Below are positions 7,700 through 41,838 of a stretch of 64,000 nt of DNA, piece after piece. Source of the stretch: Candidatus Gastranaerophilales bacterium (GTDB lineage Bacteria > Cyanobacteriota > Vampirovibrionia > Gastranaerophilales > Gastranaerophilaceae); assembly GCA_944323155.1 (NCBI GenBank), contig CALURL010000004.1, positions 1-64,000 of the forward strand, in the 5' to 3' direction. Under the pieces are notes generated by a model. That model was not told the DNA's origin. It searched no databases and was given only the letters and a program-made list of their open reading frames with translations. A program made the translations under genes and the position numbers. Position 1 is the stretch's first letter. Every line of letters starts with the position of its first letter.

Positions 7700-9175
7700 T
7701 TAAATTTCTGCAAGAATTTCAATATTGCAATTACAGCCTACTTCTTCCCTTGCTAATACTGTAATATCATTAATATAATTTGAAAGCAAGGTGAATATCA
7801 AATGTCTGTATTCCAAAGGTACAAAGATTTTTGGTTTTGTTATATTTAATTGTTTTGATTTCTGGATTATTTTTTTAGCTAGTTTTTCTGCGAAATCAGC
7901 ATCAATTCTAACTACAGAGTCATCGTCTTCTTCAAAATTCGGCTCAAAATTTGATATTGTTTTTTCTGATATTTCAAAAGCCTGTATAATTCCGTCTTCA
8001 TTTATATTGTTGCGGCAAATCTGTCTTGACAGTGACAAACGGACTTTTTTTATTACATCGGATTTTGAACTGCTGTCAGCAAAATCGTTTATTTTTTCAA
8101 ATATATAGGTAATATCTTTTATGGAAATTTTTTCTTTAATAAGGCTTGTTAGAATATATCTCAAATCTGCAAGGGTTATAAAATCCGGAATAATATTTTC
8201 GACAAGAAAGACATTTTTGTCATTCACGATATCAACGTATTTGTCGAGTTCTTCGTAATCAAGCAGATCTTCAACGTATCTAATGCAGCAGAATTCCAAT
8301 GCCCGTGAAATAAATTGTGAACCTGTTAAGCCTTTTTGCCAGAAATCTTTTGCTTTATCTTTTTCTATCCAGATAATTTTTTTACCGGTAATTGTATCAA
8401 TATCTGTTTGTGCGTTTTTGCATTTTTTTTCTAGATTAATTTCGTCTTCAAAAAACATTATGTAATTTGGGTAAACACATGCTTTAAAGACATCAAGTCC
8501 GTGTATTTTTATGCTAAATTCGTATGGATTTAAAGTTTCATCATCATGGAAAATTATTTTTGGTATTATATAGCCAAGTTTTTCAGTTAAGTTTAACCTT
8601 GATTTTACGGTTTCTGCAACAAGTTCTTCTTCCGAGATATCCTGTTCAGGGTCTATGTAACCTAAAAGCTCTTCGCTTAAATGGATAGACAGTTTTTCTT
8701 CATGAAGCCTTGAATACATTTCATCCGGAGAGGTGGCTTTGGAAAGACTTTGTTTTAATTTTTCCAATTCTTCTAATGCTGCTGACATCTTATCGTTGAG
8801 TTTTTTTCTTCCGACAGAAGCAGGTGCTGCAACTTCCAATTCTTGCTTAATTTTTGAAATTTTTTCTTTTTGTGCACGCATTTTGGATTGGATTTCTATA
8901 CAGCTCTCGTAAGGTGAAAGCTTAGGGGATAACATTTTTTCCATCTTACTTTTAAATGATGAAATATTAATTATGTCGCTGTTTTCATTGTTTGTATCGG
9001 ATGACGCTTCACTCATAAAAATGCAATTACACATTATTCCATTATCGGTTTCAACCTCCTGCATACTATATAGCTCCCAGCCATTCATAGACATTTCATT
9101 AAGCAGGTTTTGAAGTTCCTGTATATTTTCACTGGAACAGGTTTTGATTACATATTGCATTTTTTTATTAAACAT
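7700..9175 (-). CDS. Soluble FlhA C-terminal domain fused to DUF4177-like domain
   Basis: A 491-residue protein with no membrane segment. Residues 1-55 resemble DUF4177 (a short alpha/beta domain with the NGWELYSMQEV core). A lysine-rich coiled coil follows at about 95-150. From about 190 onward it matches the cytosolic domain of FlhA/SctV, the export-gate ring of flagellar and type III systems: LGYIIPKIIFHDD, FSIKIHGLDVF, a region around LLDYEELDKY, FITLADLRYILTSLIKEKISIKDITYIFE and LSRQICR all follow FlhA_C order. The roughly 330-residue FlhA membrane half is absent. It starts 13 bases after udp and is probably co-transcribed with it. A FliI-type ATPase lies at 22792. FlhA_C similarity is clear; a role in export is inference. 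Confidence 0.82.
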   Translation of the reverse strand: MFNKKMQYVIKTCSSENIQELQNLLNEMSMNGWELYSMQEVETDNGIMCNCIFMSEASSDTNNENSDIINISSFKSKMEKMLSPKLSPYESCIEIQSKMRAQKEKISKIKQELEVAAPASVGRKKLNDKMSAALEELEKLKQSLSKATSPDEMYSRLHEEKLSIHLSEELLGYIDPEQDISEEELVAETVKSRLNLTEKLGYIIPKIIFHDDETLNPYEFSIKIHGLDVFKACVYPNYIMFFEDEINLEKKCKNAQTDIDTITGKKIIWIEKDKAKDFWQKGLTGSQFISRALEFCCIRYVEDLLDYEELDKYVDIVNDKNVFLVENIIPDFITLADLRYILTSLIKEKISIKDITYIFEKINDFADSSSKSDVIKKVRLSLSRQICRNNINEDGIIQAFEISEKTISNFEPNFEEDDDSVVRIDADFAEKLAKKIIQKSKQLNITKPKIFVPLEYRHLIFTLLSNYINDITVLAREEVGCNCNIEILAEI

Positions 9176-9188
9176 CTTTGACTCCTAA

Positions 9189-9962
9189 TTAATTAGCTTT
9201 GTCATTTGAAATTAATATTTTTAAAGCTTCTACTGCTGTTTTTATGGCTCTATCTGTATCATGCACAACAGGATTTTCAAGGTTTTGTTTTTCTCTTTCT
9301 TGATTTGCTACTGTTAAAAATACTGAGCCTGCTTTTACTTTTAAGGTGCTTGCAACAATAAATAATGCAGCAGATTCCATTTCAGAGGCCAGACAACCTA
9401 ATTTTTTCCAGGCTTCCCATTTATTAATAAGTTCATAACTTACCGGCATTCTATCTGGGGCATGCTGACCGTAGAATGAATCTTTACATTGAACAACGCC
9501 TGTATGATAAGTAAAATTTAAATTTTTTGCTGCTGATACAAGAGCGTTTGTAATATCAAGATTTGCAACTGCAGGAAATTCAATAGGTGCATATTCTTTA
9601 CTAGTTCCTTCCATTCTAATAGCACCTGTTGCAATTACAATATCGCCGCCTTTTACATTAATATCCATCCCGCCGCAGGTTCCGACGCGGATAAAAGTTG
9701 TTGCACCTACATTAACTAATTCTTCCATTGCAATTGAAGCAGAAGAACCTCCTATACCGGTTGAAGTTACGCTGACTTTTTCTCCGTTTAAATAGCCGGT
9801 ATAGGTAGTGAATTCTCTTCTGTCTGCAATTAATTTTGCATCATCAAAATATTCGGCAATTTTTTTGCAGCGTTTCGGATCGCCGGGCAAAATTACATAT
9901 TTCCCAACATCGCCTTCTTTTAAACCAATATGATATTGTTCGCCATTTTCCGAATATTGCAT
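9189..9962 (-). CDS. udp: Uridine phosphorylase
   Basis: A 257-residue nucleoside phosphorylase of the hexameric NP-I family, cleaving uridine with phosphate to uracil and ribose-1-phosphate for pyrimidine salvage. Visible signatures are the phosphate-site GDPKRC (about 27-32), the glycine-rich [16 protein letters not shown] segment with the family motif, RVGTCGGM, and SEMESAALF near residue 190, where the glutamates contact ribose. The length is standard. It lies 21 bases after the ompH gene and 13 bases before the FlhA_C fusion, so a bamA-ompH-udp-FlhA_C transcript is likely. The substrate could extend to other pyrimidine nucleosides. Confidence 0.92.
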
Positions 9963-22756: not shown

Positions 22757-22784
22757 TTGATTATTTGGTCAAAATGATTATAAT
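22757..22784 (+). promoter_or_regulatory. Promoter for leaderless FliI-type ATPase gene
   Basis: TTGATT (22757-22762), a 16-base spacer and a perfect TATAAT (22779-22784) end seven bases before the ATG at 22792. The predicted transcription start is therefore at the start codon, and there is no Shine-Dalgarno sequence. Confidence 0.6.
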
Positions 22785-22791
22785 AATTTAT

Positions 22792-24138
22792 ATGAAGGGT
22801 TTGGATACAAGCAGTTTAGATGATTTAAAATTACGTGTTCATAAAAAACTAGAGGAAACAGAATTATACCGGTTTAAAGGAACTGTTTCCAAACTTTTAG
22901 GTTTGACAGTTGAGGTTAAGCTGCCAGGATTAAAGATTGGTGATTTGTGTTATATTGAGACTTATGACGGTAAGCAAAAACCGGCTGAGGTTGTTGCATT
23001 TAAAGGCGAAGCCGCGCAGTTGCTTTTGTTATATGATGGAGAAGGCATTGGTCAGGGAAGCTTAGTAACTACTACAGGGCGTCCGATTATTATTCCTGTT
23101 GGAGATTTCTTGTTGGGAAGGCTTATTAATCCAATGGGCGAACCAATTGATGATAAGCCTTTAGATACAACAGGAGCAGTTTGGCGTCCTATTGAGGGAC
23201 CTCCTCCGGGGCCTTTTGAAAGACCTATTATTACGGAAATGTTTTCGACAGGTGTTCGCGCAATAGACAGTTGTATGACAATGGGCTGTGGTCAGCGTTT
23301 AGGTTTATTTGCAGGATCTGGTGTAGGTAAAAGTACGCTTTTGGGTATGATTGCAAGAAATTCAGACGCAGATGTAAACGTTATGGCGCTGATTGGAGAA
23401 CGCGGCCGTGAAGTAAAAGAATTTGTTGAAGATTCTCTTGGTGAAGAAGGTATGAAAAAGTCTGTACTGGTTTGTTCAACCGGTGACCAGCCGCCTCTAA
23501 TCAGGCAGAAAGCTTTACTTACTGCTACTGCTGTGTGTGAATATTTTAGAGATCAGGGTAAAAAAGTTTTTCTTATGACAGATACAGTTACCCGTTGCGC
23601 TATGGCAGGGCGTGAAGTAGGATTGTCAATCGGAGAGCCTCCTACTATGAAAGGTTATCCGCCTTCAATCTTTTCATGGCTGCAAAAAGTTCTTGAACGC
23701 GCGGGAAATTCTCCGAAAGGCTCAATTACAGCATTATATACAGTTTTAATGGAAGGTGATGACATTTCAGACCCGATTGTAGATATTGTCCGCGGGATTG
23801 TTGACGGGCACATTTTCCTATCAAGAAAAGTTGCCGAGATGAACCATTACCCTGCAATTGACGTTTTAGGAAGTATTTCAAGGCTTATGTCTGCTATTGC
23901 TACTCCCGAACACAAAGAAGCTGCCGGTAAAATGAGAAAAATTATGGCAATGTATCGAGAAAATAAGGATTTGATTGATGTAGGTATGTATCAGCCTGGG
24001 ACTAACCCGAAACTTGATATTGCAATTGAAATGATGCCAAAAGTTAACGCATTTTTGCAGCAGAGAACTTCTGATCTCGTAAGTATGGATACAACAATAA
24101 GCACTCTTATTGATATGATGAAAGATGTAGATATTTAA
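22792..24138 (+). CDS. fliI: FliI/SctN-type flagellar or type III export ATPase
   Basis: A 448-residue F1-beta-like ATPase of the FliI/YscN/SctN group. From the ATG at 22792, Walker A is AGSGVGKST at about residues 174-182, followed by NVMALIGERGREVKEF, the Walker B strand KVFLMTDTVTR and EVGLSIGEPPTMKGYPPSIF, all characteristic of export ATPases rather than ATP synthase beta. An alternative TTG at 22765 lies inside the promoter. No fliH, fliJ, fliG, fliF or flhB gene is nearby; zupT follows. With the soluble FlhA_C fusion at 7700 it may belong to a reduced export device. The ATPase family is firm, the system is not. Confidence 0.9.
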   Translation: MKGLDTSSLDDLKLRVHKKLEETELYRFKGTVSKLLGLTVEVKLPGLKIGDLCYIETYDGKQKPAEVVAFKGEAAQLLLLYDGEGIGQGSLVTTTGRPIIIPVGDFLLGRLINPMGEPIDDKPLDTTGAVWRPIEGPPPGPFERPIITEMFSTGVRAIDSCMTMGCGQRLGLFAGSGVGKSTLLGMIARNSDADVNVMALIGERGREVKEFVEDSLGEEGMKKSVLVCSTGDQPPLIRQKALLTATAVCEYFRDQGKKVFLMTDTVTRCAMAGREVGLSIGEPPTMKGYPPSIFSWLQKVLERAGNSPKGSITALYTVLMEGDDISDPIVDIVRGIVDGHIFLSRKVAEMNHYPAIDVLGSISRLMSAIATPEHKEAAGKMRKIMAMYRENKDLIDVGMYQPGTNPKLDIAIEMMPKVNAFLQQRTSDLVSMDTTISTLIDMMKDVDI

Positions 24139-26281: not shown

Positions 26282-26680
26282 ATGGGATATATTCATTGCT
26301 GTGGTGCTTTGCACAAGACAAGGACATATAAGCTTGCGCCGCAGACAGAATTTTTAGTGTGTGAAGTAGACTATCTTTCAAAATGTCCGGTATGCGGGCA
26401 TACTGTTGTCCAACTTACAAGAATTGATAAAAACAAAAATTTATCTGTTATAAGAAAGGTAAATACTAAGGCTAAAAAATTTTTTCAAAAACTAAAAAGC
26501 CAATTTATTTATGAAATTCGTTCGTATAATTATTCATCAAATTCGAGTAGTGATTTTTACCTTAACTACAATGAATATGGTGTGAAAAAACGCTGTTATT
26601 CAAATCTTAGTTCATTGAAGATAGGTTTAACAGAAAATAAAGATTTAAAATCAATAGATGTTATAAATGTCAAAAATTAA
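26282..26680 (+). CDS. Small zinc-ribbon-like protein at the edge of the virion cassette
   Basis: A 132-residue protein starting MGYIHCCGALHKTRTYKL. Cys6-Cys7 and a later CPVCGH (about residues 38-43), together with other cysteine and histidine residues, suggest a small zinc ribbon. The rest is basic and serine/asparagine-rich, without a known domain. It follows a roughly 210-base leader region and is closed by a terminator at 26706. Small zinc-ribbon proteins are common at the edges of phage modules, so I treat it as the first gene of, or next to, the virion cassette. Confidence 0.6.
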   Translation: MGYIHCCGALHKTRTYKLAPQTEFLVCEVDYLSKCPVCGHTVVQLTRIDKNKNLSVIRKVNTKAKKFFQKLKSQFIYEIRSYNYSSNSSSDFYLNYNEYGVKKRCYSNLSSLKIGLTENKDLKSIDVINVKN

Positions 26681-26705
26681 TCCTTTTACTATCTTACTCA
26701 TTAGC

Positions 26706-26733
26706 AGGAAGCTTATGCTTCCTCTTTCTTTTT
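26706..26733 (+). terminator. Rho-independent terminator
   Basis: AGGAAGC (26706-26712), loop TTAT, GCTTCCT (26717-26723), then CTTTCTTTTT. It separates the zinc-ribbon-like gene from the LuxR-type HTH gene. Confidence 0.85.
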
Positions 26734-26821
26734 AATGAAACAGGAAATATTATGAAAGTTAAATAATTCTTTTTTAGTAAGCTAGTATAAGACTAACCAA
26801 AATATAAATAAAGGAATTAAG

Positions 26822-27034
26822 ATGAGTTTATCACCAAAGGAAATTCAGGTATTGACTTTGGTTGCATTGGGTTATTCAGATAAAGAAATCTGTAGTGAAT
26901 TGAAGATTAAATATGGCACGGTCAGAACGTATATTGATAGAATAGTGTTAAAGCTTAATGCAAAAAACAGAACCCATGCAGCCATATTATATATAATCAA
27001 TCATCCTGAATGGAGTGTAAATTTTTCAAGGTAA
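26822..27034 (+). CDS. LuxR/GerE-type HTH regulator, HTH only
   Basis: A 70-residue protein made only of a LuxR-type DNA-binding domain: LSPKEIQVLTLVALGYSDKE, then a turn and KYGTVRTYIDRIVLKLNAKNRTHAAIL, the standard four-helix pattern with the recognition helix in the middle. It has no receiver or sensor domain. The ATG at 26822 follows AAGGAATTAAG. It ends just before the amidase gene, so it is the first gene of the virion transcript and a plausible activator of it. Confidence 0.82.
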   Translation: MSLSPKEIQVLTLVALGYSDKEICSELKIKYGTVRTYIDRIVLKLNAKNRTHAAILYIINHPEWSVNFSR

Positions 27035-27036
27035 AT

Positions 27037-27534
27037 ATGAAAAGAATAATAATACATTGGACAGCAGGAGGTCACTATCCGACTGCTAGTGAACTTTTTT
27101 ATTATCATTTTTTGATTGATAAGGATGGAAAGTATTACCGTGGCAAGTTTAGGCCAAGTGATAACGAAAACTGTAAGCCGGCAAGTTATGCACCCCACAC
27201 AGGAGGCGGTAATACCGGCTCAATAGGCGTTGCATTATGCGGAATGTCAGGGTTTAAGAATAAGAAGAAAATTGGGAATTATCCTATTACAAAAATTCAG
27301 TTTGAGTCAGCTATGAAATTGTGTGCTGAACTTTGTTTAGAGTATAAAATTCCTGTTACAGGACAAACCATTATGACACATTATGAATTTGGTCTTAAAC
27401 ATCCTAAAACATCCAGTGCCGGGAAAATAGATATAATATTTATTCCTCCTTATCCCTGGGTAGAAAGGCAAGAGGCGGGAAGCTTTATTAGAGCAAAGAT
27501 TAAGTGGTATTTATTAAAGTTAAAAGGAGATTAA
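27037..27534 (+). CDS. N-acetylmuramoyl-L-alanine amidase (phage-type endolysin)
   Basis: A 165-residue peptidoglycan amidase of the Amidase_2/PGRP fold. It cuts the bond between MurNAc and the stem peptide. The metal-site elements are IIIHWTAGG (His near residue 7), YAPHTGGGNTGSIGVALCGM, and a third element around THYEFGLKHP and GKID. I use the ATG at 27037, two bases after the HTH gene stop and preceded by AAGG; an upstream in-frame start at 27010 overlaps the HTH gene. It has no signal peptide, so release would need a holin. In a virion cassette it could act in lysis or in entry. Confidence 0.85.
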   Translation: MKRIIIHWTAGGHYPTASELFYYHFLIDKDGKYYRGKFRPSDNENCKPASYAPHTGGGNTGSIGVALCGMSGFKNKKKIGNYPITKIQFESAMKLCAELCLEYKIPVTGQTIMTHYEFGLKHPKTSSAGKIDIIFIPPYPWVERQEAGSFIRAKIKWYLLKLKGD

Positions 27535-27535
27535 T

Positions 27536-29065
27536 ATGTCAGAAATATCTTTTTATAATTTATCCGGTGGTATAAACTTAGCCGCGACTAAAACAGAGTT
27601 AGGTTTAGATACAAAAAAAATATATTGGTCAGATTCTAAAAATATAGAAATTTTATCAAATAAAGGCATTGTAAAACAAAAGGGTAATGTTATATTTTTT
27701 GAACTTCCAGTACCAGAAAAAATAACAAGTATAACAGAGATGGTTTCAAAACCCAATAATAAGCTTGTAATTACAACTGTTTCAGGCAAAATTTATGTTT
27801 ATAATAATCAAATTGGGCAGGCGGTTTTATTAGACAAAACATTAAATGGTGAAAAGCCAAGGTTTGTTAATTTTTTAAACGGCTTGGTTGGGATTTCAGA
27901 ATCAGACGGGCTTTTTTATATAAAAGACAACGGGAATAATAATTACGAAGTTTTGGAATGCGACTTAAAAGATTCATCTGATGAACTTGTTACTGATGCT
28001 GTTATTACAGTATTTAGAGGCAGAATATTTGTCGCAAAAGATGCAACGATTTATTATTCTGCGCTTGGAACTTATGATGATTTTGAAACTGAAAATGATG
28101 CAGGCTATATAAGAAATTTTCATACAGATACTGATGAAATTACTGCATTAAAACCATACAGGGATTATCTTGCAATATACAAAAGGAATAAAGTGTATTT
28201 GTTATCAGGAACTACTCCTGAAGATTTTGCAATTCAGCCGTTTGCAGATAAAGGTTCATACTCTGCCGATGCAATTGTAAATGTTAATAACAAACAGTAT
28301 TTTTTGAGTGACGGAATATTTGCATTGGAGCAGGTTGGGGAATTAAATCAAATCCAGTTAGGTTCTGAAATTACATCCAATATTCGTCCAGAATTTGAAC
28401 ACTTTACATATACAGGTCTGGCAAATGCATTTTGTATTCACTATCCTAAAAAAAATCAGGTCTGGTACTTTTTTCCGTATATGAATGATGAATATTTTCA
28501 TACAATTTGGATTAATGATTATGTTAATAAATCCTGGTTCAAGCGGGTTTTACCTCAGGATATAACGTGTGCAGCCAGTTATAACGGAGATATTTTAACA
28601 GCAGATTCATCAGGCTGCATTTATAAGGAAGATACAGGAAACACCTTTGACGGGCAAGCAATAGAATTTATGTGGAAATCTCCATTTCTTGCAATAACAC
28701 AGGCTCATCACAGGAAAACAATCGATGAATTTTATTTTATTTTGGATAATTCTTATGATAATGATTTTAATTTTTCTATATACAAGGATTATGACAGTGA
28801 GTTTTCTGATGATGTAGAGCACATATATTGTTATCACGAAGAACATTTTATGTGGGGAGACGATACATCTGATGCAAAATCAAATGAATGCTGGCCTGTT
28901 GATAATGCAATGTATCCAATATGGGCGGTTAATACAGATGTTATGGAAAAAGCAGAAATCTCAGAAGCCAATTATTCAATACAGCTTTGTATCGAAGGAA
29001 ATGAAATAACAAGTTCCTGTGCAATAATAGGACTTCATTTTAAAGAAATATATAACGATGATTAA
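27536..29065 (+). CDS. Phage tail-hub/head-completion protein, P22 gp10-like beta-propeller
   Basis: A 509-residue beta-rich protein. It starts NLSGGINLAATKTEL and then repeats blades of about 45-50 residues (for example NKLVITTVSGKIYVYNNQ, RIFVAKDATIYYSALG, YLAIYKRNKVYLLSGTTP, KQYFLSDGIFALEQVG), as do P22 gp10-type hub proteins that close the portal after packaging. An acidic, aromatic C-terminal beta domain follows. AAGGAG precedes the ATG at 27536. It is placed directly before the coat gene. The propeller pattern is visible; the exact gp10 equivalence is inference. Confidence 0.6.
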   Translation: MSEISFYNLSGGINLAATKTELGLDTKKIYWSDSKNIEILSNKGIVKQKGNVIFFELPVPEKITSITEMVSKPNNKLVITTVSGKIYVYNNQIGQAVLLDKTLNGEKPRFVNFLNGLVGISESDGLFYIKDNGNNNYEVLECDLKDSSDELVTDAVITVFRGRIFVAKDATIYYSALGTYDDFETENDAGYIRNFHTDTDEITALKPYRDYLAIYKRNKVYLLSGTTPEDFAIQPFADKGSYSADAIVNVNNKQYFLSDGIFALEQVGELNQIQLGSEITSNIRPEFEHFTYTGLANAFCIHYPKKNQVWYFFPYMNDEYFHTIWINDYVNKSWFKRVLPQDITCAASYNGDILTADSSGCIYKEDTGNTFDGQAIEFMWKSPFLAITQAHHRKTIDEFYFILDNSYDNDFNFSIYKDYDSEFSDDVEHIYCYHEEHFMWGDDTSDAKSNECWPVDNAMYPIWAVNTDVMEKAEISEANYSIQLCIEGNEITSSCAIIGLHFKEIYNDD

Positions 29066-29127
29066 TAAAAAAGCCACCACTCATTATTTAAGTACAACAA
29101 TAATTTAACCAAGAAAGGAAACAAAAC

Positions 29128-29988
29128 ATGACAGAAAACGCTTACTCTGCATTTATTCCAGAGATATGGAGCCAAAAACTTAATGCAATGTTGGAAAAAG
29201 AATGCGTTATGCTTCAATGTGTAAACAGAAATTATGAAGGCGAAATTAAAAATCAAGGTGATAAAGTAAAAATTATTACACCTGCAGAAGTTGCTATTTC
29301 AACATTAAGTACAAGTAATATTTCATATAGTGAACTTGCACCAACATCAATGGATTTGGTAATTGATCAGAAAAAATTCTTTGCATTTAAAATTAATGAT
29401 GTTGCGCAGGTTCAAGCAAATACTGATATTATGGAAGCTCACTTGAAAAATGCTAAAAAAGCAATTGAAGAAGTTCAAGATGCTTACCTTCTATCACAAC
29501 ATACAAATGTAGATTCAAAAAATATTGTAGGAAGTGACTCAGCTCCAATTGCACTGGATAAGACAACAATTTATGAACAGTTTGTAAAACTTGCTTTGGC
29601 ATTGAAAAATTCAGATGCCGTATCTGCAACAAAACGCCCGTGGGTTGTAATTAACCCGACAATTGAATCATATCTATTACAAAGCAGTGAATTTATCGGC
29701 GCATATAAAGTTGCAGATGAAACACTAAGAGAAGGCGCAATTGGCAGAATTGCAGGCATGGATGTACTTGTAAGTACAAATTTAACTGCAACATCTAATA
29801 AATTCTATGTTTTAGCCGGTACAAACGATGCAATTACATTTGCCTCTCAGTTAGCAAAAATTGAAAGCTTAAGAGACAAAGATTCATTCTCTGACCTGGT
29901 TAGAGGTTTATATTTGTACGGTGCAAAAACAGTTCAGCCAAAAGCACTTGCAAAAATGGTTGTCAAAGATCCTTCTGCTGCAGCATAA
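29128..29988 (+). CDS. Major capsid protein (HK97 fold, P22-coat-like)
   Basis: A 286-residue coat protein. The N terminus (FIPEIWSQKLNAMLEKECVM) and NRNYEGEIKNQGDKVKIITP are the typical opening of this phage coat family, followed by the DLVIDQKKFFAFKINDVAQ E-loop/spine region and the A-domain-like segments around GRIAGMDVLVSTNL. The sequence is full length with no disruption. AAGAAAGGA precedes ATG 29128. It is followed by a perfect hairpin at 30041 and by the scaffold candidate. Together with the portal and terminase genes, this identifies the region as a capsid-forming unit. Confidence 0.85.
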   Translation: MTENAYSAFIPEIWSQKLNAMLEKECVMLQCVNRNYEGEIKNQGDKVKIITPAEVAISTLSTSNISYSELAPTSMDLVIDQKKFFAFKINDVAQVQANTDIMEAHLKNAKKAIEEVQDAYLLSQHTNVDSKNIVGSDSAPIALDKTTIYEQFVKLALALKNSDAVSATKRPWVVINPTIESYLLQSSEFIGAYKVADETLREGAIGRIAGMDVLVSTNLTATSNKFYVLAGTNDAITFASQLAKIESLRDKDSFSDLVRGLYLYGAKTVQPKALAKMVVKDPSAAA

Positions 29989-30040
29989 TTTGTGAAAATT
30001 AAATAAGTTAAATATAAATATTTACCCTGATCAAAATAAA

Positions 30041-30074
30041 AGTGTATCCTTGAATAATTTTTCAAGGATACACT
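30041..30074 (+). terminator. Perfect 12-bp inverted repeat after the coat gene
   Basis: AGTGTATCCTTG (30041-30052) and CAAGGATACACT (30063-30074) form a perfect stem with a ten-base loop. The 3' side has only a weak T run (CCATTTTG), so it may be an attenuator or an mRNA-stabilising stem that keeps coat mRNA abundant, rather than a full terminator. Confidence 0.65.
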
Positions 30075-30100
30075 CCATTTTGAGAAGAAAGGATATACTG

Positions 30101-30349
30101 ATGTTTACTAAACTTAAAAGAACAATAAAAGAACTTGCTAAACAGGCAGTTTATCTGGCTGAAAAAACTCTGAGCGGTGAAGACGGAAAAAGAAAAAAAC
30201 AGATGGCACTTGAATACATAATATCTAATATTCCGGTATTTGCGCCTTTTAAAAAGATTATTGCAAAACTTCTTTCGGATTTTATAGATGATGCAATAGA
30301 ACTTTCTGTTTTGACAATGAAATCTTTATCGCACGGATTTGAACAATAA
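30101..30349 (+). CDS. Small virion-cassette protein, possible holin-like
   Basis: An 82-residue basic protein. I start at ATG 30101, which has GAAAGGA upstream; an in-frame start at 30050 lies inside the hairpin. A lysine-rich N terminus is followed by an amphipathic segment (ALEYIISNIPVFAPFKKIIA) and an acidic helix. The middle is moderately hydrophobic but not a clear membrane span. It lies between the coat and scaffold genes. It could be a small head or holin-like protein; function is not certain. Confidence 0.5.
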   Translation: MFTKLKRTIKELAKQAVYLAEKTLSGEDGKRKKQMALEYIISNIPVFAPFKKIIAKLLSDFIDDAIELSVLTMKSLSHGFEQ

Positions 30350-30358
30350 GGAGAAATA

Positions 30359-31072
30359 ATGAATATGCAAGATAAAAAGAATGCACAATTAATGAATACA
30401 AATTCTTCAAATATTTCATCAAATGCCGTTTACCAGCAGACACTGGCGGATGCATTACAAACAAGTGAGGCAGCAAAGCCAAATCAAGCTGCTTCTTCTT
30501 CAATGTCAGATGCAGAAAACCAGATAAAACAAATGGCGCTAAAGGATATTCAACAAATCGAGAACATGATTAATTCAGGTGTTGTAAGTCCGGAACAAGG
30601 ACAAAATTTAATGAATTATGTAGTGAATAAAGCGTATAATGAAGTGAAACAACAAAAAGGGCTTTCAACACAGCAACCTGTTCAAAATTCTGTGCCTGCC
30701 GCGGGTTATCTTAATAACCTCGACAATCCTGAATTTTTTCAACAGGATGGAAGAAATCAAGTTCTTGAATATTTGAAAAATTCTTATCCCACTGTTGGTA
30801 AAGATGAAATGTCTCAAATTATTAATATGATAACAGGAGTTGAAAACTCTGCAATACAGAGATATTTGAGAAAGCAGGAGCACGATAAAGCACTAATGAA
30901 TGCAAATGAAGCTGCAAAACAGAGATTAATTGCAAATGCGCAAAAATCCAATGCAGGAAACGGAACCGGAGTGATTTTTACTCGTGAGCAAATCGGCAAA
31001 ATGAGTGGTGCAGAATTTGCAAAAAATGAACGTCTAATTATGGATCAGTTAAAAAGAGGTCTTATTCGTTAG
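30359..31072 (+). CDS. Putative capsid scaffold protein
   Basis: A 237-residue, Gln/Asn-rich, helical protein without cysteine. The N-terminal 55 residues are low complexity, the middle is predicted helical, and the C-terminal 30 residues contain FTREQIGKMSGAEFAKNERL, a motif I know from phage scaffolding proteins that bind coat at their C terminus. AAGGAG precedes ATG 30359. It lies just after the coat gene, whereas in P22-like phages the scaffold precedes it. The role is inferred from position, composition and this C-terminal motif. Confidence 0.65.
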   Translation: MNMQDKKNAQLMNTNSSNISSNAVYQQTLADALQTSEAAKPNQAASSSMSDAENQIKQMALKDIQQIENMINSGVVSPEQGQNLMNYVVNKAYNEVKQQKGLSTQQPVQNSVPAAGYLNNLDNPEFFQQDGRNQVLEYLKNSYPTVGKDEMSQIINMITGVENSAIQRYLRKQEHDKALMNANEAAKQRLIANAQKSNAGNGTGVIFTREQIGKMSGAEFAKNERLIMDQLKRGLIR

Positions 31073-31101
31073 AATTTTGTGAATTTATAATCTTTAAGCG
31101 G

Positions 31102-31129
31102 GCAGCCTTTTTATTAGGCTGCTTTGTTT
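31102..31129 (+). terminator. Hairpin terminator after scaffold gene
   Basis: GCAGCCT (31102-31108) pairs with AGGCTGC (31116-31122), followed by TTTGTTT. Confidence 0.75.
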
Positions 31130-31157
31130 AAAGATGTTAAAAAGATTAGGAGAAAAC

Positions 31158-31796
31158 ATGAATTATTTGGAGATTGTTAATAAATGTCTGATTGAGCTTA
31201 ATTACAAACAGGTAAATGCTTTTTCGGAATTAATAAAAAATGATCATAAAAAATTAAAAAATATAATAAATGTTATAAATGCAGAACTGTGTAATTTTGA
31301 TAACTGGAATTTTTTGCTTCGTAAGTCTGTTTTACATCTTTCAAAAGGCGAAACAGAAATTGATAACACAATTGCCGGAAGAATAGAATCTTTAATTGCA
31401 GACGGAAATGTTCTTGAATATTATGAAGATTTTGAAAAATTCTTTACAAATACACAGCCTTCTAATACATACAGTATTTTTAACAATAAAATTTTGCTGC
31501 CGGAATATGATAGAGATATTGATATAGATGTAATTTATTACACAAAGAATTGTGCTGTAAATGAATCAGGTGAAGAAATTCTCGAATTGACAGATGGAAC
31601 TGATGAATCTTTAATCCCCATGCCTTTTGCAGAGCCTTTACTTGTGTATGGCGCATGTATGAGATTAAAAGGAAATCCGCAGCATGTAAGATTTAATTAC
31701 TGGTATGGCATGTATAAAGATGCACTTGCAAACCTTCGTGCAAAGGTTTCAATAACTACTGATGATATTCCGACAATCAAGACTCACAGAAGGTAA
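31158..31796 (+). CDS. Head-tail adaptor-like protein
   Basis: A 212-residue protein. The ATG at 31158 has TTAGGAG upstream and is preferred to ATG 31134, which lacks a site. The opening MNYLEIVNKCLIELNYKQVN and the strong Trp/Tyr content (DNWNFLLR, FNYWYGMYKDALANLRAK near the C terminus) resemble the P22 gp4-type ring proteins that attach under the portal. It is located between scaffold and small terminase. The adaptor call is by build and context only. Confidence 0.55.
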   Translation: MNYLEIVNKCLIELNYKQVNAFSELIKNDHKKLKNIINVINAELCNFDNWNFLLRKSVLHLSKGETEIDNTIAGRIESLIADGNVLEYYEDFEKFFTNTQPSNTYSIFNNKILLPEYDRDIDIDVIYYTKNCAVNESGEEILELTDGTDESLIPMPFAEPLLVYGACMRLKGNPQHVRFNYWYGMYKDALANLRAKVSITTDDIPTIKTHRR

Positions 31797-31961
31797 AAAT
31801 CAGAATTTCGGACAAAAAAAACAGGAAGTAATTTCATTTCCCCCCTGTTAAGATTTACACTAGCCGAAATATAAATAGCATGCTTATTATACAATTTTTT
31901 TCAAAAAAACACAAATATTTATAAGAAATGTTAATAATTTTAATAAAAGAATAAAACAATA

Positions 31962-32399
31962 ATGAAAAATTTAACTCAACAGCAAAAACAATTTGTATTT
32001 GAATATATAAATTCTCTTGATGGAGAGTATTCTGCAAAGAAAGCCGGTTACAAAGCAAAGGATTTGAAATCTGTCGCAAACAGATTACTTTCTGACAAAA
32101 TAATTGTTAATGAAATTAAATTACAAATCCAAAAACAAATATCTTCGTTAAGAGTTCACAAAGGATATGTTATACAAAAACTTTTGCAGATTGCGGAATT
32201 TTCTCTGGAGGAGGAGGATATTCTTGATAAAGACGGAGGTTATACAGGCAAGAAAAAATTACGTGACACATCTGCAGGTCTAAAAGCGCTTGAAAGTCTC
32301 TGTAAATATCTTGGATTTTCTTCTAATAACAAAGAAGAGGATGAATACAATCAAGCAAAAATTATAACTATTTCGAATTTAGATGATGAAAAAATTTAG
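31962..32399 (+). CDS. Phage terminase small subunit
   Basis: A 145-residue protein matching the small terminase pattern: LTQQQKQFVFEYINSLDGEYSAKKAGYK (seen as an N-terminal HTH), followed by ANRLLSDKIIVNEIK, a coiled oligomerisation region and an acidic tail. This subunit recognises viral or host DNA and delivers it to the large subunit for packaging. ATG 31962 lies about 165 bases after the adaptor gene, in AT-rich DNA with an AACAGG...CCTGTT repeat at 31820-31849. Its DNA target cannot be predicted from this window. Confidence 0.82.
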   Translation: MKNLTQQQKQFVFEYINSLDGEYSAKKAGYKAKDLKSVANRLLSDKIIVNEIKLQIQKQISSLRVHKGYVIQKLLQIAEFSLEEEDILDKDGGYTGKKKLRDTSAGLKALESLCKYLGFSSNNKEEDEYNQAKIITISNLDDEKI

Positions 32400-32411
32400 A
32401 GGAAAGTTATT

Positions 32412-32771
32412 ATGAAGAATCAGGAAAATGTAGAAAAAATGCTTCTTGAAGGTGCATCATTAGAAGATTTAATAAGGATGAAAATAGAAGAAGAATTTAA
32501 AAATGAAGCTGAAAAATTGAAACATAAGCCTCAAAAAATTACTTATACGGAAATATCAAAGGTTCCTGAAAAGTATATTTTTTCTAAGAATTCTGTATTC
32601 AAAGTTTTCAATAAAAGAACTAAAAACGAATCTTATATAAACGGAGTTCAAGCAGAAGCCCTTTTAGGAATTCAATATAACGTGCGCGAACAAATATTGA
32701 AAGGTTTGCTGAGCGCGTTTATCACAGAAGATGCATATGTAAGATTTGAGAAAGCTGATGTCTGGGAATAA
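32412..32771 (+). CDS. Virion-cassette hypothetical protein
   Basis: A 119-residue charged protein beginning with a helical, glutamate-rich region (EDLIRMKIEEEFKNEAEKL) and a basic C-terminal domain (FKVFNKRTKNESYINGVQAE, GIQYNVREQILKGLL). No family recognised. GAGGAAAG precedes ATG 32412. Its stop overlaps the next start by one base, so it is translationally coupled to the GNAT gene. Confidence 0.65.
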   Translation: MKNQENVEKMLLEGASLEDLIRMKIEEEFKNEAEKLKHKPQKITYTEISKVPEKYIFSKNSVFKVFNKRTKNESYINGVQAEALLGIQYNVREQILKGLLSAFITEDAYVRFEKADVWE

Positions 32772-33295
32772 TGATTGAATTTTTAAATATAACAATAAAA
32801 CGTAATACTGGACATTACGAAAATACCAAATATTTTACCGAAGTTATGTTTTTATATTTAAGATATGCGAAATTTTTGGATGATGATTACGCTCTGAACG
32901 GACAGTCTTTTTATGAATATTTCTGCGGGCTTGTCGAAAGGTTAAGCCCTTTTTTCTGGGTAATTTTGTATGACGGAAAGGTCTCCGGATTTGTTTTTCT
33001 TGACAATATAATCGGCGACAGCAGCCGCCTTCATTCGGCGGAACTTACAACTTGTTTTCATAAAGAATTCTGGGGCAGTTATACAAAATACTGCGCAAAG
33101 TTATTTTTAAATCACTGTTTTAATCGTCTAAAATTCAAAAAAATTAAAGCGCTTATTTATCCGCAAAATTTCAGAGTAAAAACACTATTGAAAGCAAGCG
33201 GTTTTCAAAAAGAAGGATATCTTAAATCAGAAACGCTAAAAGATAATAAATTGCAGGATATTGAAATATATTCTGTACTAAATCAGGAAAGGTAA
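32771..33295 (+). CDS. GNAT-family acetyltransferase inside the virion cassette
   Basis: A 174-residue GNAT-fold protein. FFWVILYDGKVSGFVFLDNI gives the central beta strands, AKLFLNHCFNRLKFKKIKALIYPQNFRVKTLLKASGF (seen in part) follows the acetyl-CoA helix and the usual C-terminal asparagine helix, ending QKEGYLK. The typical pyrophosphate loop is weak. It overlaps the preceding stop by one base and precedes the portal gene by 5 bases. Some phage structural operons carry such genes, perhaps to modify virion or host proteins; the target is unknown. Confidence 0.7.
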   Translation: MIEFLNITIKRNTGHYENTKYFTEVMFLYLRYAKFLDDDYALNGQSFYEYFCGLVERLSPFFWVILYDGKVSGFVFLDNIIGDSSRLHSAELTTCFHKEFWGSYTKYCAKLFLNHCFNRLKFKKIKALIYPQNFRVKTLLKASGFQKEGYLKSETLKDNKLQDIEIYSVLNQER

Positions 33296-33300
33296 TTTTT

Positions 33301-34977
33301 ATGAAAATAGAAACTGAAGATTTAACTCAAAAATTAAATGAAACAGATGCAATTTATTTGACAGGCAGTATCGCTGAGAAATATGACAAATTTGAAGATG
33401 AGCGTACTGCACAGTTGAATGATATTCGTCTTGTAAGAGATGCAATATATAACACTGACATCCCAAAATTGAACGGCTGGGACAATAAGATTGAACTGCC
33501 GGATATTTATGAGCTTGCTCAAACATTAAAATCTCATATCAGCGAGAATTTATATTCACATCCTGATGCAATGTTTGATGTTACAGGAACTACGCCTCAA
33601 ACACAGGCTTTTGCAAACAGGCAAAAAGCAATGCTTGTCAATACATTCGAGCAGATGAATATTGAAAATGAAATAGAAAAAGTTATTGATGGAATTGTTG
33701 AAACAGGCGAGGCAACCTTATTTGTCGGCTGGGAAACTAAAATTAAATCAACAAGGCGTGCAAAAACTTTTGAAGAAGAACTTATGCACCCTGAAACAAA
33801 AGGCGGTTTTGTAATTGAAGATAAAGTTACATACGATAATGCAAGAATTAAACATATTAAAGCTGAAGATTTTGTTTTTGATAAATATAATCGTGATAAC
33901 TGGGATTCTTGCGCAAAAATTTATCGTACTTATGCTTCGCTCGAGGATATATTCTCTGACAAATCAAATAACTGTCTTACTGAAGAAAAAACGGAAGAAT
34001 TGAAAGGAGTGGTGGCAAATAAAAAATCACGCAGCAGCCTAAGCGCCAATAGAGCTGTTGACGGTAATAAACTTGAAATTTTAGAATACTGGGGAGATAT
34101 TGAATTATCAGACGGAAAGGTTTTGAAAAACTGGCTGGTTGTTGTTGCCGCAAGAAAAGAAATTATCCGATTTGAACCGAATCCGTTTATCATAAATCCT
34201 TTTATCCACGCAAATATTATAGAATCACCGCATACTTTAAGAGGAGTTTCTCCATTACGTGTGGCGTTGATATTAAATAATATAGCTTCAACTATTTTGA
34301 ATAAACAAATAGATGCTCTTGCATTAATGATGAATCCTCCATATCTTGCGCCGAAAGGCTGTTTTAAAGGTCAGCAGGATGTCAAGCCGGGGAAAATTAT
34401 TGAATATGATGCCGCTTTAATGCCGACTCAGCCAATTCCTTTATCTTTTGATAAAGCTATGGTCGGCTGGGATTTCTTGAATTATTTCAAATCAACAATA
34501 GAAAGCGCTACAGGAATTTTCAAAAATATGGCGGGAAATATTCAAAATGCACAGCGTACGGCAACAGAATTAAATTATTCCGTAAGCGGTCAGGAAGCAA
34601 GATTAAACATGCTTCTTGATACAATTAACAGAAAAATTGTTGTTCCTATGGTTGAGAAAACTGCAGAAATTATTTCTTATTTTAAACTCGGTAAAGAGTT
34701 AATAGGAACAAACGACAGAGGCAAAACTATGTTTGTTGAAATTGACGATGATGTTAGAAATGCCAATTACATTTATCGTTATGGGGATAGAAAAGCCTCT
34801 TTTGAAAGAAAACTTCGATTGAAAGAGTTATTTGAAGTTGTTCAATCATTTGCAAATGTTCCGGAGGTTGAGGAACAGATTAACTGGCTTGAATGTTTCA
34901 AATTTGCTTTGGAACAATACGGAATTGAAAACGCAAATAATTTTCTTTTGAACAAAGACGATGAAATCCAAAAGTAA
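33301..34977 (+). CDS. Phage portal protein
   Basis: A 558-residue portal of the P22/podovirus type, forming the dodecameric ring through which DNA is packed. Features are the N-terminal wing (YDKFEDERTAQLNDIRLVRD, then DNKIELPDIYELAQTLKSHI), a stem/clip region (IDGIVETGEATLFVGWE), ESPHTLRGVSPLRVALILNN, and a long helical C-terminal crown region with QNAQRTATELNYSVSGQEARL, typical of portals. No disruption is seen. The gene lies 5 bases after the GNAT gene and 113 bases before the large terminase. Confidence 0.85.
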   Translation: MKIETEDLTQKLNETDAIYLTGSIAEKYDKFEDERTAQLNDIRLVRDAIYNTDIPKLNGWDNKIELPDIYELAQTLKSHISENLYSHPDAMFDVTGTTPQTQAFANRQKAMLVNTFEQMNIENEIEKVIDGIVETGEATLFVGWETKIKSTRRAKTFEEELMHPETKGGFVIEDKVTYDNARIKHIKAEDFVFDKYNRDNWDSCAKIYRTYASLEDIFSDKSNNCLTEEKTEELKGVVANKKSRSSLSANRAVDGNKLEILEYWGDIELSDGKVLKNWLVVVAARKEIIRFEPNPFIINPFIHANIIESPHTLRGVSPLRVALILNNIASTILNKQIDALALMMNPPYLAPKGCFKGQQDVKPGKIIEYDAALMPTQPIPLSFDKAMVGWDFLNYFKSTIESATGIFKNMAGNIQNAQRTATELNYSVSGQEARLNMLLDTINRKIVVPMVEKTAEIISYFKLGKELIGTNDRGKTMFVEIDDDVRNANYIYRYGDRKASFERKLRLKELFEVVQSFANVPEVEEQINWLECFKFALEQYGIENANNFLLNKDDEIQK

Positions 34978-35090
34978 ACTGAATCTATTAGTCTATTCTC
35001 TGCCGTCCCTTTCAGGTTCTTTTCCGACTCCTCATGCATAAATGACCATTTCTATTCCAAGGGGCGGCTTTTTCTTGCAGGTAAAAAGTT

Positions 35091-36380
35091 ATGGAGTATA
35101 AGTTATTAAAAGCGCAGCGGGAATTTTTGGAAATTCCTCATAATTACAGTTTGGATATTGCGGTATATCAAGGCGGATATGGTTCCGGCAAAACTTTTGC
35201 AGGATCTCTTCTTGGAATATTGTTATGTTTGAAGTTCCCCGGTGTCCGCGGGCTTGTCGGGGCACAGACTTACACACTTGTTCGTGATACTACTTTGCAG
35301 ACTTACTTTGAACATCTTGACAATATTGGTTTTCGCGATGGATTTGATTATGAATGGTCATCTTCTTTGCAGAAACTCACGTTCAAAAACGGGTCTGAAA
35401 TTTTATTCAGACATTTTGATGAACCTAATAAATTAAAATCTTTAAACCTTGGATTTGTAGAGATAGAAGAAATGTCTGATATTCCTTATGAAACATTTAA
35501 GATGTTATTAGGCCGTATGCGGCAGAGGGTTAAAAAAACTTGGAAAAATTTTACATACAGAATTTTCGGGCATACAAATCCGGAAATGCACAGGGGTTGG
35601 GTTTATAAAACCTTTGTTGAGAATACTGCACCGAATTATCGTTTAATTACCGCTCCGACAACACAGAATATTTATCTCCCTGAAGGGTTTTGCGAAGAGC
35701 TTAAAAAGTTATATGATGAACATTATTATAATATTTTTGTTCTTGCGCAAAACGGCGATTACAATAACGGGCTTGTGGTGAAAGATTTTACTGATGAAAA
35801 TGTGAAATCTATAACTTACCAGCAGGATATGGATTTACATATAAGCTGTGATTTTAATGTTGATCCGATGTCATGGGTTTTAGCGCATAAAACTGATGAC
35901 AAGGTTTTTTATTTTGATGAAATTGTTTTGGAGAACACTACAACTTCAAAAGCGTGCGATGAATTTTTCAGGAGATACCCCAGTCATAAGGGAAAAATTA
36001 TTGTTAATGGAGATGCCTCCGGCGACAATAGAAGCTGTACAAGTGAATATACGAATTATGTAATTATCAAGAAAAAACTTCTTCAATACGGCTATGATGT
36101 TGAAATTCAAATAAAAGCATTTAATCCTCCGATAAAAAACAGGGTTATGGCGTTTAATTCTAAGGTTCGTTCAGCCGAAGGGGAAGTTTGTCTGTTTGTT
36201 GATAAAAAGTGTGAAAAACTTCTTTATAACATTTATAACCTCAGATATAAAGAAGGGACTTCCAAAATTGATATTCCGACATATCAGCAGATTAAGCAGA
36301 CAAAAGAGTTGAAATTTCTTTCACATCCGTTTGATGCTGCGTCTTATCTTGTTGATTTTTATTGGCCGATAACTTTATAA
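35091..36380 (+). CDS. Phage terminase large subunit
   Basis: A 429-residue packaging motor with both activities apparently intact. The ATPase has Walker A GGYGSGKT (about residues 28-35) and Walker B GFVEIEEMSD. The RNase H-like nuclease has its three acidic positions in ISCDFNVDP, IVNGDASGD and HPFDAASYLV. The length is normal for the PBSX/Terminase_3-like group. ATG 35091 follows AGGTAAAAAGTT. Intact catalytic motifs argue that the cassette is functional or only recently inactivated. Confidence 0.9.
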   Translation: MEYKLLKAQREFLEIPHNYSLDIAVYQGGYGSGKTFAGSLLGILLCLKFPGVRGLVGAQTYTLVRDTTLQTYFEHLDNIGFRDGFDYEWSSSLQKLTFKNGSEILFRHFDEPNKLKSLNLGFVEIEEMSDIPYETFKMLLGRMRQRVKKTWKNFTYRIFGHTNPEMHRGWVYKTFVENTAPNYRLITAPTTQNIYLPEGFCEELKKLYDEHYYNIFVLAQNGDYNNGLVVKDFTDENVKSITYQQDMDLHISCDFNVDPMSWVLAHKTDDKVFYFDEIVLENTTTSKACDEFFRRYPSHKGKIIVNGDASGDNRSCTSEYTNYVIIKKKLLQYGYDVEIQIKAFNPPIKNRVMAFNSKVRSAEGEVCLFVDKKCEKLLYNIYNLRYKEGTSKIDIPTYQQIKQTKELKFLSHPFDAASYLVDFYWPITL

Positions 36381-36392
36381 GGAAAAATTATT

Positions 36393-37046
36393 ATGGAAAC
36401 AGAATTAAAAAGATTGCATTACAAATCAAATATTTTGAAGCGTCTTTGTATTCATACAAATGATATGTCTGTAGGAAAAATCGGAACTGATTTGCCGCAT
36501 GGCTGGCATGTTGTGGAAGCGGAATACAATCCGAAAACAAATTTTAAATGTATGATTTACAGGAACAAAAACCAAGTTGTTTTTAGTTTTGCCGGAACTG
36601 ATAAAAAAAGTATTCTAGATCATGCTGCAAACATTCAAATGTGTTTTGGCACAATTAACAACCAGATGAAAAAGGCAAATGAGTTTTTTCAGGTTATGAA
36701 AAGACGTTATGTGAGAATTTTTGATGAGGTTACGCTTGTTGGACATTCAGAAGGCGGAAGCGAGGCAACATTTGCAGGTGTTTTGAATAATATCGAGACA
36801 GTTACTTTTAATACTTATGGTATCTCTAAGAAACTAATACTAAAAGACAAAGATTATACCAATTTAATTACGAACTACAGAAGCCCGCATGATATAGTTT
36901 CAAAATTACGCATAAATCCGGGCCGAACTTTTATAATCCCCTCAGACTCAGGTTTTTTGCGAGCTCACAGTATAAAAAATATGGGAAATTGCCTTGATGC
37001 AATTCCTGTAGAAATTTATAAAAAGAAGCATTTTTTGTTTAGATAA
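36393..37046 (+). CDS. Lipase-like alpha/beta hydrolase
   Basis: A 217-residue alpha/beta hydrolase of the class 3 lipase/Mbeg1-like type. The nucleophile elbow is VTLVGHSEGG (Ser near residue 118); the likely acid is in RSPHDIVSKL and the histidine in AHSIKNMGN. VVFSFAGTDKKS is the conserved strand before the nucleophile. No signal peptide. AAGGAAAA precedes ATG 36393, 12 bases after the terminase. In a virion cassette it may help membrane lysis or act on host lipids during exit or entry. Confidence 0.75.
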   Translation: METELKRLHYKSNILKRLCIHTNDMSVGKIGTDLPHGWHVVEAEYNPKTNFKCMIYRNKNQVVFSFAGTDKKSILDHAANIQMCFGTINNQMKKANEFFQVMKRRYVRIFDEVTLVGHSEGGSEATFAGVLNNIETVTFNTYGISKKLILKDKDYTNLITNYRSPHDIVSKLRINPGRTFIIPSDSGFLRAHSIKNMGNCLDAIPVEIYKKKHFLFR

Positions 37047-37054
37047 GGAAAATT

Positions 37055-37285
37055 ATGGAAAGTTTATTGCATTATTCACCGATATTGATAGCGATTATGG
37101 TATTTTTAATTCAGCAAAGGATTGTTGTAACGCCTGAAATGCTTGAGAAAAAACATAGAGAAATTATTGAGGAAATTGAAGAAAAATTTGTCACACTCAA
37201 TAGTTTCAAAGATTTGAAATATCAGTTTTCTGAAGTAAAAGAAAAAATTGATAAAATGTATGATTTGCTGATAGATTTGAAATAA
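37055..37285 (+). CDS. Small one-span protein with coiled coil at the end of the virion cassette
   Basis: A 76-residue protein with a single N-terminal hydrophobic segment (PILIAIMVFLI, residues 9-19) and a long charged coiled coil (EKKHREIIEEIEEKF onward). AAGGAAAA precedes the ATG. This topology fits a pinholin, a spanin-type protein or a lysis regulator. It is the last gene in the same-strand run; a 117-base gap follows before the next unit. Confidence 0.6.
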   Translation: MESLLHYSPILIAIMVFLIQQRIVVTPEMLEKKHREIIEEIEEKFVTLNSFKDLKYQFSEVKEKIDKMYDLLIDLK

Positions 37286-37402
37286 TGTTAACAAATGTAA
37301 CATGGATGTTTTATATATTAAAGATTTCTCTATAAATAGCCGTAGACATGAATATCAGGAATATATGTTACTAAGAAATTAACGAAAGGAAAGCGGCAAA
37401 CA

Positions 37403-39034: not shown

Positions 39035-39126
39035 TAATAAAGATTTCCTTAAGATATATAACAAATTTTCCTTGTCCATGCTAGTATTGTAATAGAAATA
39101 CCAGTTACGGAGAGGAAAATTTTTTT

Positions 39127-41763: not shown

Positions 41764-41838
41764 TGAACTTTTATACTCTTGAAAATTATTGAAGAATCTT
41801 CTATAATTTCACTATCAATAAAAGAGAGGAGCGAATTT

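Follow-up and report, generated by a model that had tools for sequence, protein, structure and literature searches.

Flagella and injectisomes have a docking ring built from the cytosolic domain of FlhA (FlhA_C), which normally shares a single polypeptide with the membrane half of the protein. One gene in the window, by which we mean the whole 64,000-nucleotide stretch of Gastranaerophilales DNA analysed here, departs from this arrangement, and the first-pass annotation had read it as an FlhA_C domain in which a short DUF4177-like domain and a coiled coil replace the membrane half. What might such a protein do, and with which machinery? In the following, SOL denotes this soluble FlhA_C paralogue, G000 the genome of the window (1.79 Mb, 99.7% complete) and T1 the flagellin-less, flagellum-type export gene set of G000 and its order.

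An FlhA cytosolic domain without a membrane half

SOL is encoded by an ORF of 491 aa with an ATG start and a Shine-Dalgarno sequence (AGGAG), and comprises the following parts:

7700..9175, minus strand: SOL, soluble FlhA_C paralogue (ORF; Pfam, NCBIfam and PDB matches; AlphaFold2 model)
9008..9175, minus strand: DUF4177-like beta-alpha-beta-beta domain, residues 1-56 (DUF4177 in 21 of 42 orthologues; model)
8732..8914, minus strand: predicted helical (coiled-coil) hairpin in the place of the membrane domain, residues 88-148 (model)
8693..8731, minus strand: FlhA linker motif (S/N)P..MY.(K/R)L, residues 149-161 (group alignment)
8468..8695, minus strand: first part of D1, residues 161-236 (alignment to E. 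coli FlhA 362-434; fold match)
8324..8467, minus strand: D2, residues 237-284 (alignment; D260, equivalent to D456, kept; T263 replaces F459)
8330..8362, minus strand: SOL-specific D2 motif K(T/A)KD(F/Y)W.KG, residues 272-282 (absent from full-length FlhA)
8264..8323, minus strand: second part of D1, residues 285-304 (R291 at the T490 position)
8027..8263, minus strand: D3, most conserved, residues 305-383 (53% mean identity within SOL)
7703..8026, minus strand: D4, least conserved, residues 384-491 (31% mean identity within SOL)

The Pfam FHIPEP profile (PF00771) matches SOL residues 133-480 with 158.9 bits (E=2.5e-46) and covers profile positions 304-653 of 657 only, which correspond to the cytosolic half; the N-terminal, gate-forming membrane domain is missing. 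The NCBIfam FlhA model also matches (E=1.6e-43), with SOL scoring 149 (FlhA) and 92 bits (SctV), under the equivalog cut-offs of 772 and 692, and a PDB sequence search recovered FlhA_C of B. subtilis (E=1.8e-22). Since the maximum hydropathy over 19 residues is only 1.35, SOL has no membrane segment. Homology to full-length FlhA begins at residue ~126, just after the last membrane helix of T1 FlhA, and the FlhA positions R391, W465, E547, E559, R579 and R655 are conserved in the alignment.

An AlphaFold2 model built on an alignment of 42 SOL members (A1) has a mean pLDDT of 82.6 and contains the complete FlhA_C fold (D1-D4) in residues 145-491. It matches every solved full FlhA_C or SctV_C structure listed with Z of 22-30 over ~300-340 residues, far above unrelated entries, and the best match is a PDB FlhA_C (Z 29.9 over 339 residues). 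SOL thus shares the D1-D4 fold and linker of the FlhA/SctV cytoplasmic domain, whereas it differs from FlhA/SctV in its lack of a membrane domain, its DUF4177-like domain and coiled coil, its altered chaperone dimple and GYXLI motif, and its long branch in the tree. Profile, hydropathy and model therefore bear out the presence of an FlhA_C fold without a membrane half.

The N-terminal domain is modelled as strands 6-14, 34-43 and 46-56 with a helix at 18-30; residues 59-80 are disordered, and the hairpin helices span 88-115 and 121-148. DUF4177 (PF13783) matches weakly in SOL itself (E=0.047, 14.4 bits against a gathering cut-off of 25), and it is found in 21 of the 42 orthologues at E<=0.1, at best with E=3.2e-4. 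An LLN.M...GWELY-type motif is general across the N-terminal domain of the orthologues, and several invariant SOL residues fall within this domain. A PDB sequence search with the profile of this domain gave no matches, and Foldseek with its model alone against the PDB gave none of significance (best E=0.036, common alpha-beta arrangements only). The orthologue matches and the modelled hairpin uphold the proposed replacement of the membrane half. SOL is therefore a real and conserved protein of unusual architecture, a variant of FlhA_C and not a separate kind. As it lacks the membrane half, it falls short of what defines an export gate, and may well nonetheless cooperate with one.

A flagellum-type export gene set without flagellin

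A genome-wide search identified flhB and fliPQR in G000, and a full-length membrane FlhA (C5:63696-65672). The latter lies in the order FliE-FliF-(340-aa protein)-FliH-FlhA. The 340-aa protein (L033:16479-17501) occupies the place of FliG, has no Pfam FliG match and gives a sub-threshold MgtE_N match (E=0.055); it is possibly a far-diverged FliG. A further cluster reads FliMN-FliO-FliP-FliQ-(126-aa protein)-FliR, in which the 126-aa protein between FliQ and FliR (L040:8990-9370) carries a T2SS-T3SS_pil_N (secretin N-terminal) domain; a weak homologue occupies the same position in G035. G000 also encodes FlhB together with FliJ and an FlgE/F/G-type protein, and FlgF, FlgG, FlgB and FlgC together with a FliA-like sigma factor (assigned by eye). 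The T1 genes are scattered over C5, C14, C20 and C22 (L033, L040, L069, L070) and the window, which contributes the ATPase:

22765..24138, plus strand: FliI/SctN-family ATPase of T1 (TIGR01026, 546.9 bits, below the FliI and SctN equivalog cut-offs)

T1 thus combines the export gate, MS ring, ATPase and rod genes by which flagellar sets are recognized. Neither Flagellin_N nor FlgI (P-ring) was found in G000, and among 24 genomes tested FlgI is confined to those with flagellin. Flagellin-bearing relatives encode T1 and, in addition, a second, flagellar set, so that FliP (~217 and ~260 aa), FlhB, high-scoring FliI and full FlhA are doubled. In one relative (G041) the T1 genes form a single cluster, FlgF-G-B-C-..-FliE-F-..-H-FlhA-FliI. 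For FlhA, FliI, FlhB, FliP, FliR and FliF of T1, flagellar models score above Sct models, with FlhA, FliI, FliR and FliF under the equivalog cut-offs; this speaks against a non-flagellar (Sct) injectisome. Three further families of the class (f9, f14, f15), all without SOL, have a T1 FlhA too, at 62-66% identity. The T1 FliE-FlhA operon is preceded, at a distance of about 5 kb and with other genes in between, by genes for a group of uncharacterised proteins of 90-417 aa, several of them rich in coiled coils (L034:4126-8907), which are possible T1 substrates or chaperones.

With a complete-looking T1 set in G000, SOL is not the lone type III gene of its genome. According to the first-pass annotation, a full membrane FlhA with other flagellar genes elsewhere would leave SOL a paralogue of minor interest. 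Such an FlhA and such genes are indeed present, but the set lacks flagellin. This lessens the surprise of SOL, though not fully, because of the missing flagellin and because SOL is a separate, conserved paralogue found across the order.

Earlier work took the flagellin-less sets of this lineage for flagella that are incomplete or in decay (PMC3787301, PMC4040986). Among the 13 flagellar genes common to the first four genomes, flhA is listed twice, once within a flgG-flgC-fliF-fliH-flhA-fliI cluster and once by itself (PMC3787301), and the lone flhA may be SOL. Our literature searches found no paper that treats the flagellin-less set as a secretion system, and nothing relevant on soluble FlhA paralogues or type III systems of these bacteria. 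T1 looks like a distinct, conserved export apparatus of the whole order that stands beside a true flagellum in motile relatives, and not like a decaying flagellum; it would presumably secrete substrates. Gene sets reported as decaying flagella may accordingly merit a view as conserved export apparatus. A parallel exists in Chlamydia, which has the flagellar paralogues FliI, FlhA and FliF though it is non-flagellated (PMC2830194). As here, flagellum-type export proteins occur in a non-flagellated bacterium, whereas, unlike SOL, FlhA of Chlamydia is reported to be a membrane protein, and the bacterium has a separate injectisome besides (PMC2830194).

Distribution, ancestry and remodelled sites of SOL

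SOL was found in 54 of 58 Gastranaerophilales genomes searched (34-79% identity; not found in G004, G005, G032 and G055) and in all 99 order genomes drawn for a second search, which answers the earlier call to examine conservation of the fusion across the lineage. Among the genomes sampled, other families of the class gave weaker full-length FlhA-type matches or none, and none had the SOL form. The named records are Candidatus Gastranaerophilales or Melainabacteria metagenome-assembled genomes, chiefly from animal gut. For a close pair, dN/dS is 0.045/1.50 = 0.03, which indicates purifying selection. A chance match or pseudogene is ruled out by these values together with the FHIPEP match. That SOL might be a remnant of flhA, decaying or wrongly assembled, a reading to which the missing membrane half and nothing else points, is hardly credible: order-wide conservation of the same architecture and the low dN/dS contradict it, SOL has its own start and Shine-Dalgarno sequence, and a full-length flhA is present elsewhere in G000.

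In 19 genomes SOL is accompanied by a single FliP of T1 type and no flagellin, so SOL is independent of the flagellum, and a part in the true flagellum only is ruled out. T1 in turn does not need SOL, as T1 genes are present without it in G004 (98% complete), G005 (93% complete) and families f9, f14 and f15. No genome with SOL and without all T1 genes was found among those searched; in G006 (75% complete), SOL and T1 FliP were found and T1 FlhA was not.

In a maximum-likelihood tree of the cytosolic region of FlhA, all 42 SOL sequences group together on a long branch (bootstrap 100) and join the T1 FlhA sequences from the order and from f9, f14 and f15 (UFBoot 99), whereas flagellar FlhA forms a clade of its own (97); FastTree agrees. 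The tree places SOL outside the group of order T1 plus f9/f14/f15, and a position as sister to order T1 was not rejected (AU p=0.115). By these sequence trees, SOL is shown to share ancestry with the T1 FlhA lineage. Its nearest relatives are thus the full-length T1 FlhA proteins (~703 aa) of the same genomes, which have the same linker motif (NP..MY.RLG) and, unlike SOL, keep the membrane half, Thr490, an aromatic residue at 459 and Gly368.

In Salmonella FlhA, chaperones bind a dimple with D456, F459 and T490, linker residues E351, W354 and D356 make ring contacts with D1/D3 of the adjacent subunit, and the GYXLI motif at 368-372 underlies the motion of the domains (PMC8166844, PMC10965912). 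Across the 42 SOL sequences, the D456 equivalent is kept (D260; 40/42), F459 is replaced by T/S (T263; 37/42) and T490 by R/K (R291; 31/42, R24 and K7); the hydrophobic dimple for flagellar chaperones is altered, and the GYXLI switch is replaced. The latter site reads SEELL (residues 167-171) in SOL, with S in 38/42 (G368), E in 32/42, E in 41/42 (R370), then mostly L/I and L. T1 FlhA has D/E, an aromatic residue (459), T/S (490) and G (368) at these sites. The chaperone cleft, one of the points singled out for comparison by the first-pass annotation, is therefore remodelled. Linker residues P150 (41/42) and M153 (37/42) are common to SOL and T1 FlhA and differ from E. coli and the flagellar set, and the D2 motif, with W279 in 42/42 and G282 in 41/42, does not occur in full-length FlhA. 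Mean identity within SOL is 53% in D3, 47/42% in the two parts of D1, 42% in D2 and 31% in D4; against T1 FlhA it is 37% in D3 and 19% in D4. The alignment thus shows that SOL retains the ring-building parts D1, D3 and T1-type linker motif while the known chaperone pocket is altered, although the conservation of D1 and D3 could instead reflect fold stability alone. These replacements bear on the notion that SOL is a free FlhA_C ring docking ordinary flagellar chaperones (FlgN/FliS/FliT type) as FlhA does. The complete D1-D4 fold and retained D260 would suit it, yet F459 and T490 are lost in SOL and their counterparts kept in T1 FlhA, and SOL persists in flagellin-less genomes, which together make it highly unlikely.

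Several relatives encode extra small proteins (212-335 aa) with D1 and D3, without D2 and usually without D4 (L206:7037-7684 and 8804-9520, L207:1972-2979, L208:1924-2562, L209:1567-2424, L210:1982-2620), and one derivative of 593 aa (L205:3042-4823) that likewise drops D2 but retains D4 and has a membrane helix (by eye). They are apparently derived from T1 FlhA and are sporadic in the order; none was found in G000. It thus seems to be the ring-forming half that is reused, and its occurrence by itself in relatives would agree with contacts to the FlhA ring.

Genomic neighbourhood and candidate roles

The gene upstream of SOL lies on the same strand and is probably on the same transcript:

9189..9962, minus strand: udp (ORF; 13 bp upstream of SOL)

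In G000 and many relatives SOL lies within a bamA-ompH-udp run. This run had been recognized from the window alone, whereas the FliI-family ATPase 13.6 kb away in the same window had been overlooked. Directly upstream of SOL, 17 of 30 family-f1 loci carry a gene for a pyrimidine-nucleoside phosphorylase: in 11 genomes it is udp, and in 6 the same enzymatic place is taken by a second such enzyme (named by eye) that appears unrelated (window 9189-9962, L011, L018, L019, L021, L024, L028). None of the genomes examined has SOL and T1 genes in a common operon, and a search for an operon partner conserved across families found none. The context in other families is wholly different: in G041 SOL lies 146 bp ahead of FliJ-FliK-FlgD-FlgE (named by eye except FlgE), and in both G041 and G046 it adjoins flagellar export genes.

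Our preferred reading, held tentatively and at somewhat less than even confidence, is that SOL serves the flagellin-less, flagellum-derived type III apparatus T1 from the cytosol, as an accessory platform or adaptor compatible with ring formation. SOL would sit beneath the nonameric T1 FlhA ring or mix into it via D1/D3 and the linker, and its remodelled D2 and N-terminal DUF4177/coiled-coil module would offer a different docking surface for a lineage-specific partner. It would thus recruit or sort substrates and not itself be the membrane gate. The fold, the T1 ancestry, the conservation, the co-residence with T1 and the flagellin independence of SOL speak for a role in T1; the missing operon linkage and the T1 genomes without SOL count against it. 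A bolder form, which we consider rather doubtful, is a two-part FlhA in which the membrane gate is complemented by a second, cytosolic component, either an FlhA_C ring or a subunit of mixed rings, which has a rebuilt docking surface and whose DUF4177/coiled-coil part recruits lineage-specific cargo. If true, the export gate of a rod-bearing, flagellin-less apparatus would have a sorting platform that can be detached from it. The near-universal presence of a cytosolic FlhA_C across a gut order allows one to ask whether docking is separable from the gate.

A precedent for a soluble half is FlhX of epsilonproteobacteria, a soluble homologue of the FlhB C-terminal domain that is kept beside the membrane protein. 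Like SOL, it is a cytosolic paralogue of just the cytoplasmic half of an export-gate protein; unlike SOL, it derives from FlhB and not FlhA, and we know of no added DUF4177/coiled-coil module in FlhX.

SOL could alternatively act as a regulator or decoy that binds T1 FlhA (via D1/D3/linker) or chaperone-substrate complexes in the cytosol and keeps the apparatus off until needed. The lost GYXLI switch (G368>S, R370>E) and dimple (F459>T, T490>R) suit a non-exporting partner, the D1+D3 mini proteins of relatives resemble bare interaction modules, and some genomes manage without SOL. However, its near-universal presence and slow evolution exceed what is expected of a dispensable brake, and the invariant residues in the DUF4177 domain argue that SOL is more than an interface mimic; we regard this role as unlikely. 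A small share of probability is likewise reserved for a function outside secretion, such as nucleoside salvage or envelope biogenesis with the FlhA_C fold reused as a scaffold, because of the missing operon link to T1 and the frequent phosphorylase neighbours, often within bamA-ompH. Against such a function stand the different contexts in other families, the flagellar export neighbours in G041 and G046, the conservation of the ring domains, and the fact that SOL was not found in any genome fully without T1 genes.

Elsewhere in the window, the region at about 26300-41800 appears prophage-like by eye: a single plus-strand run there contains amidase, capsid-like, portal-like and terminase-like ORFs.
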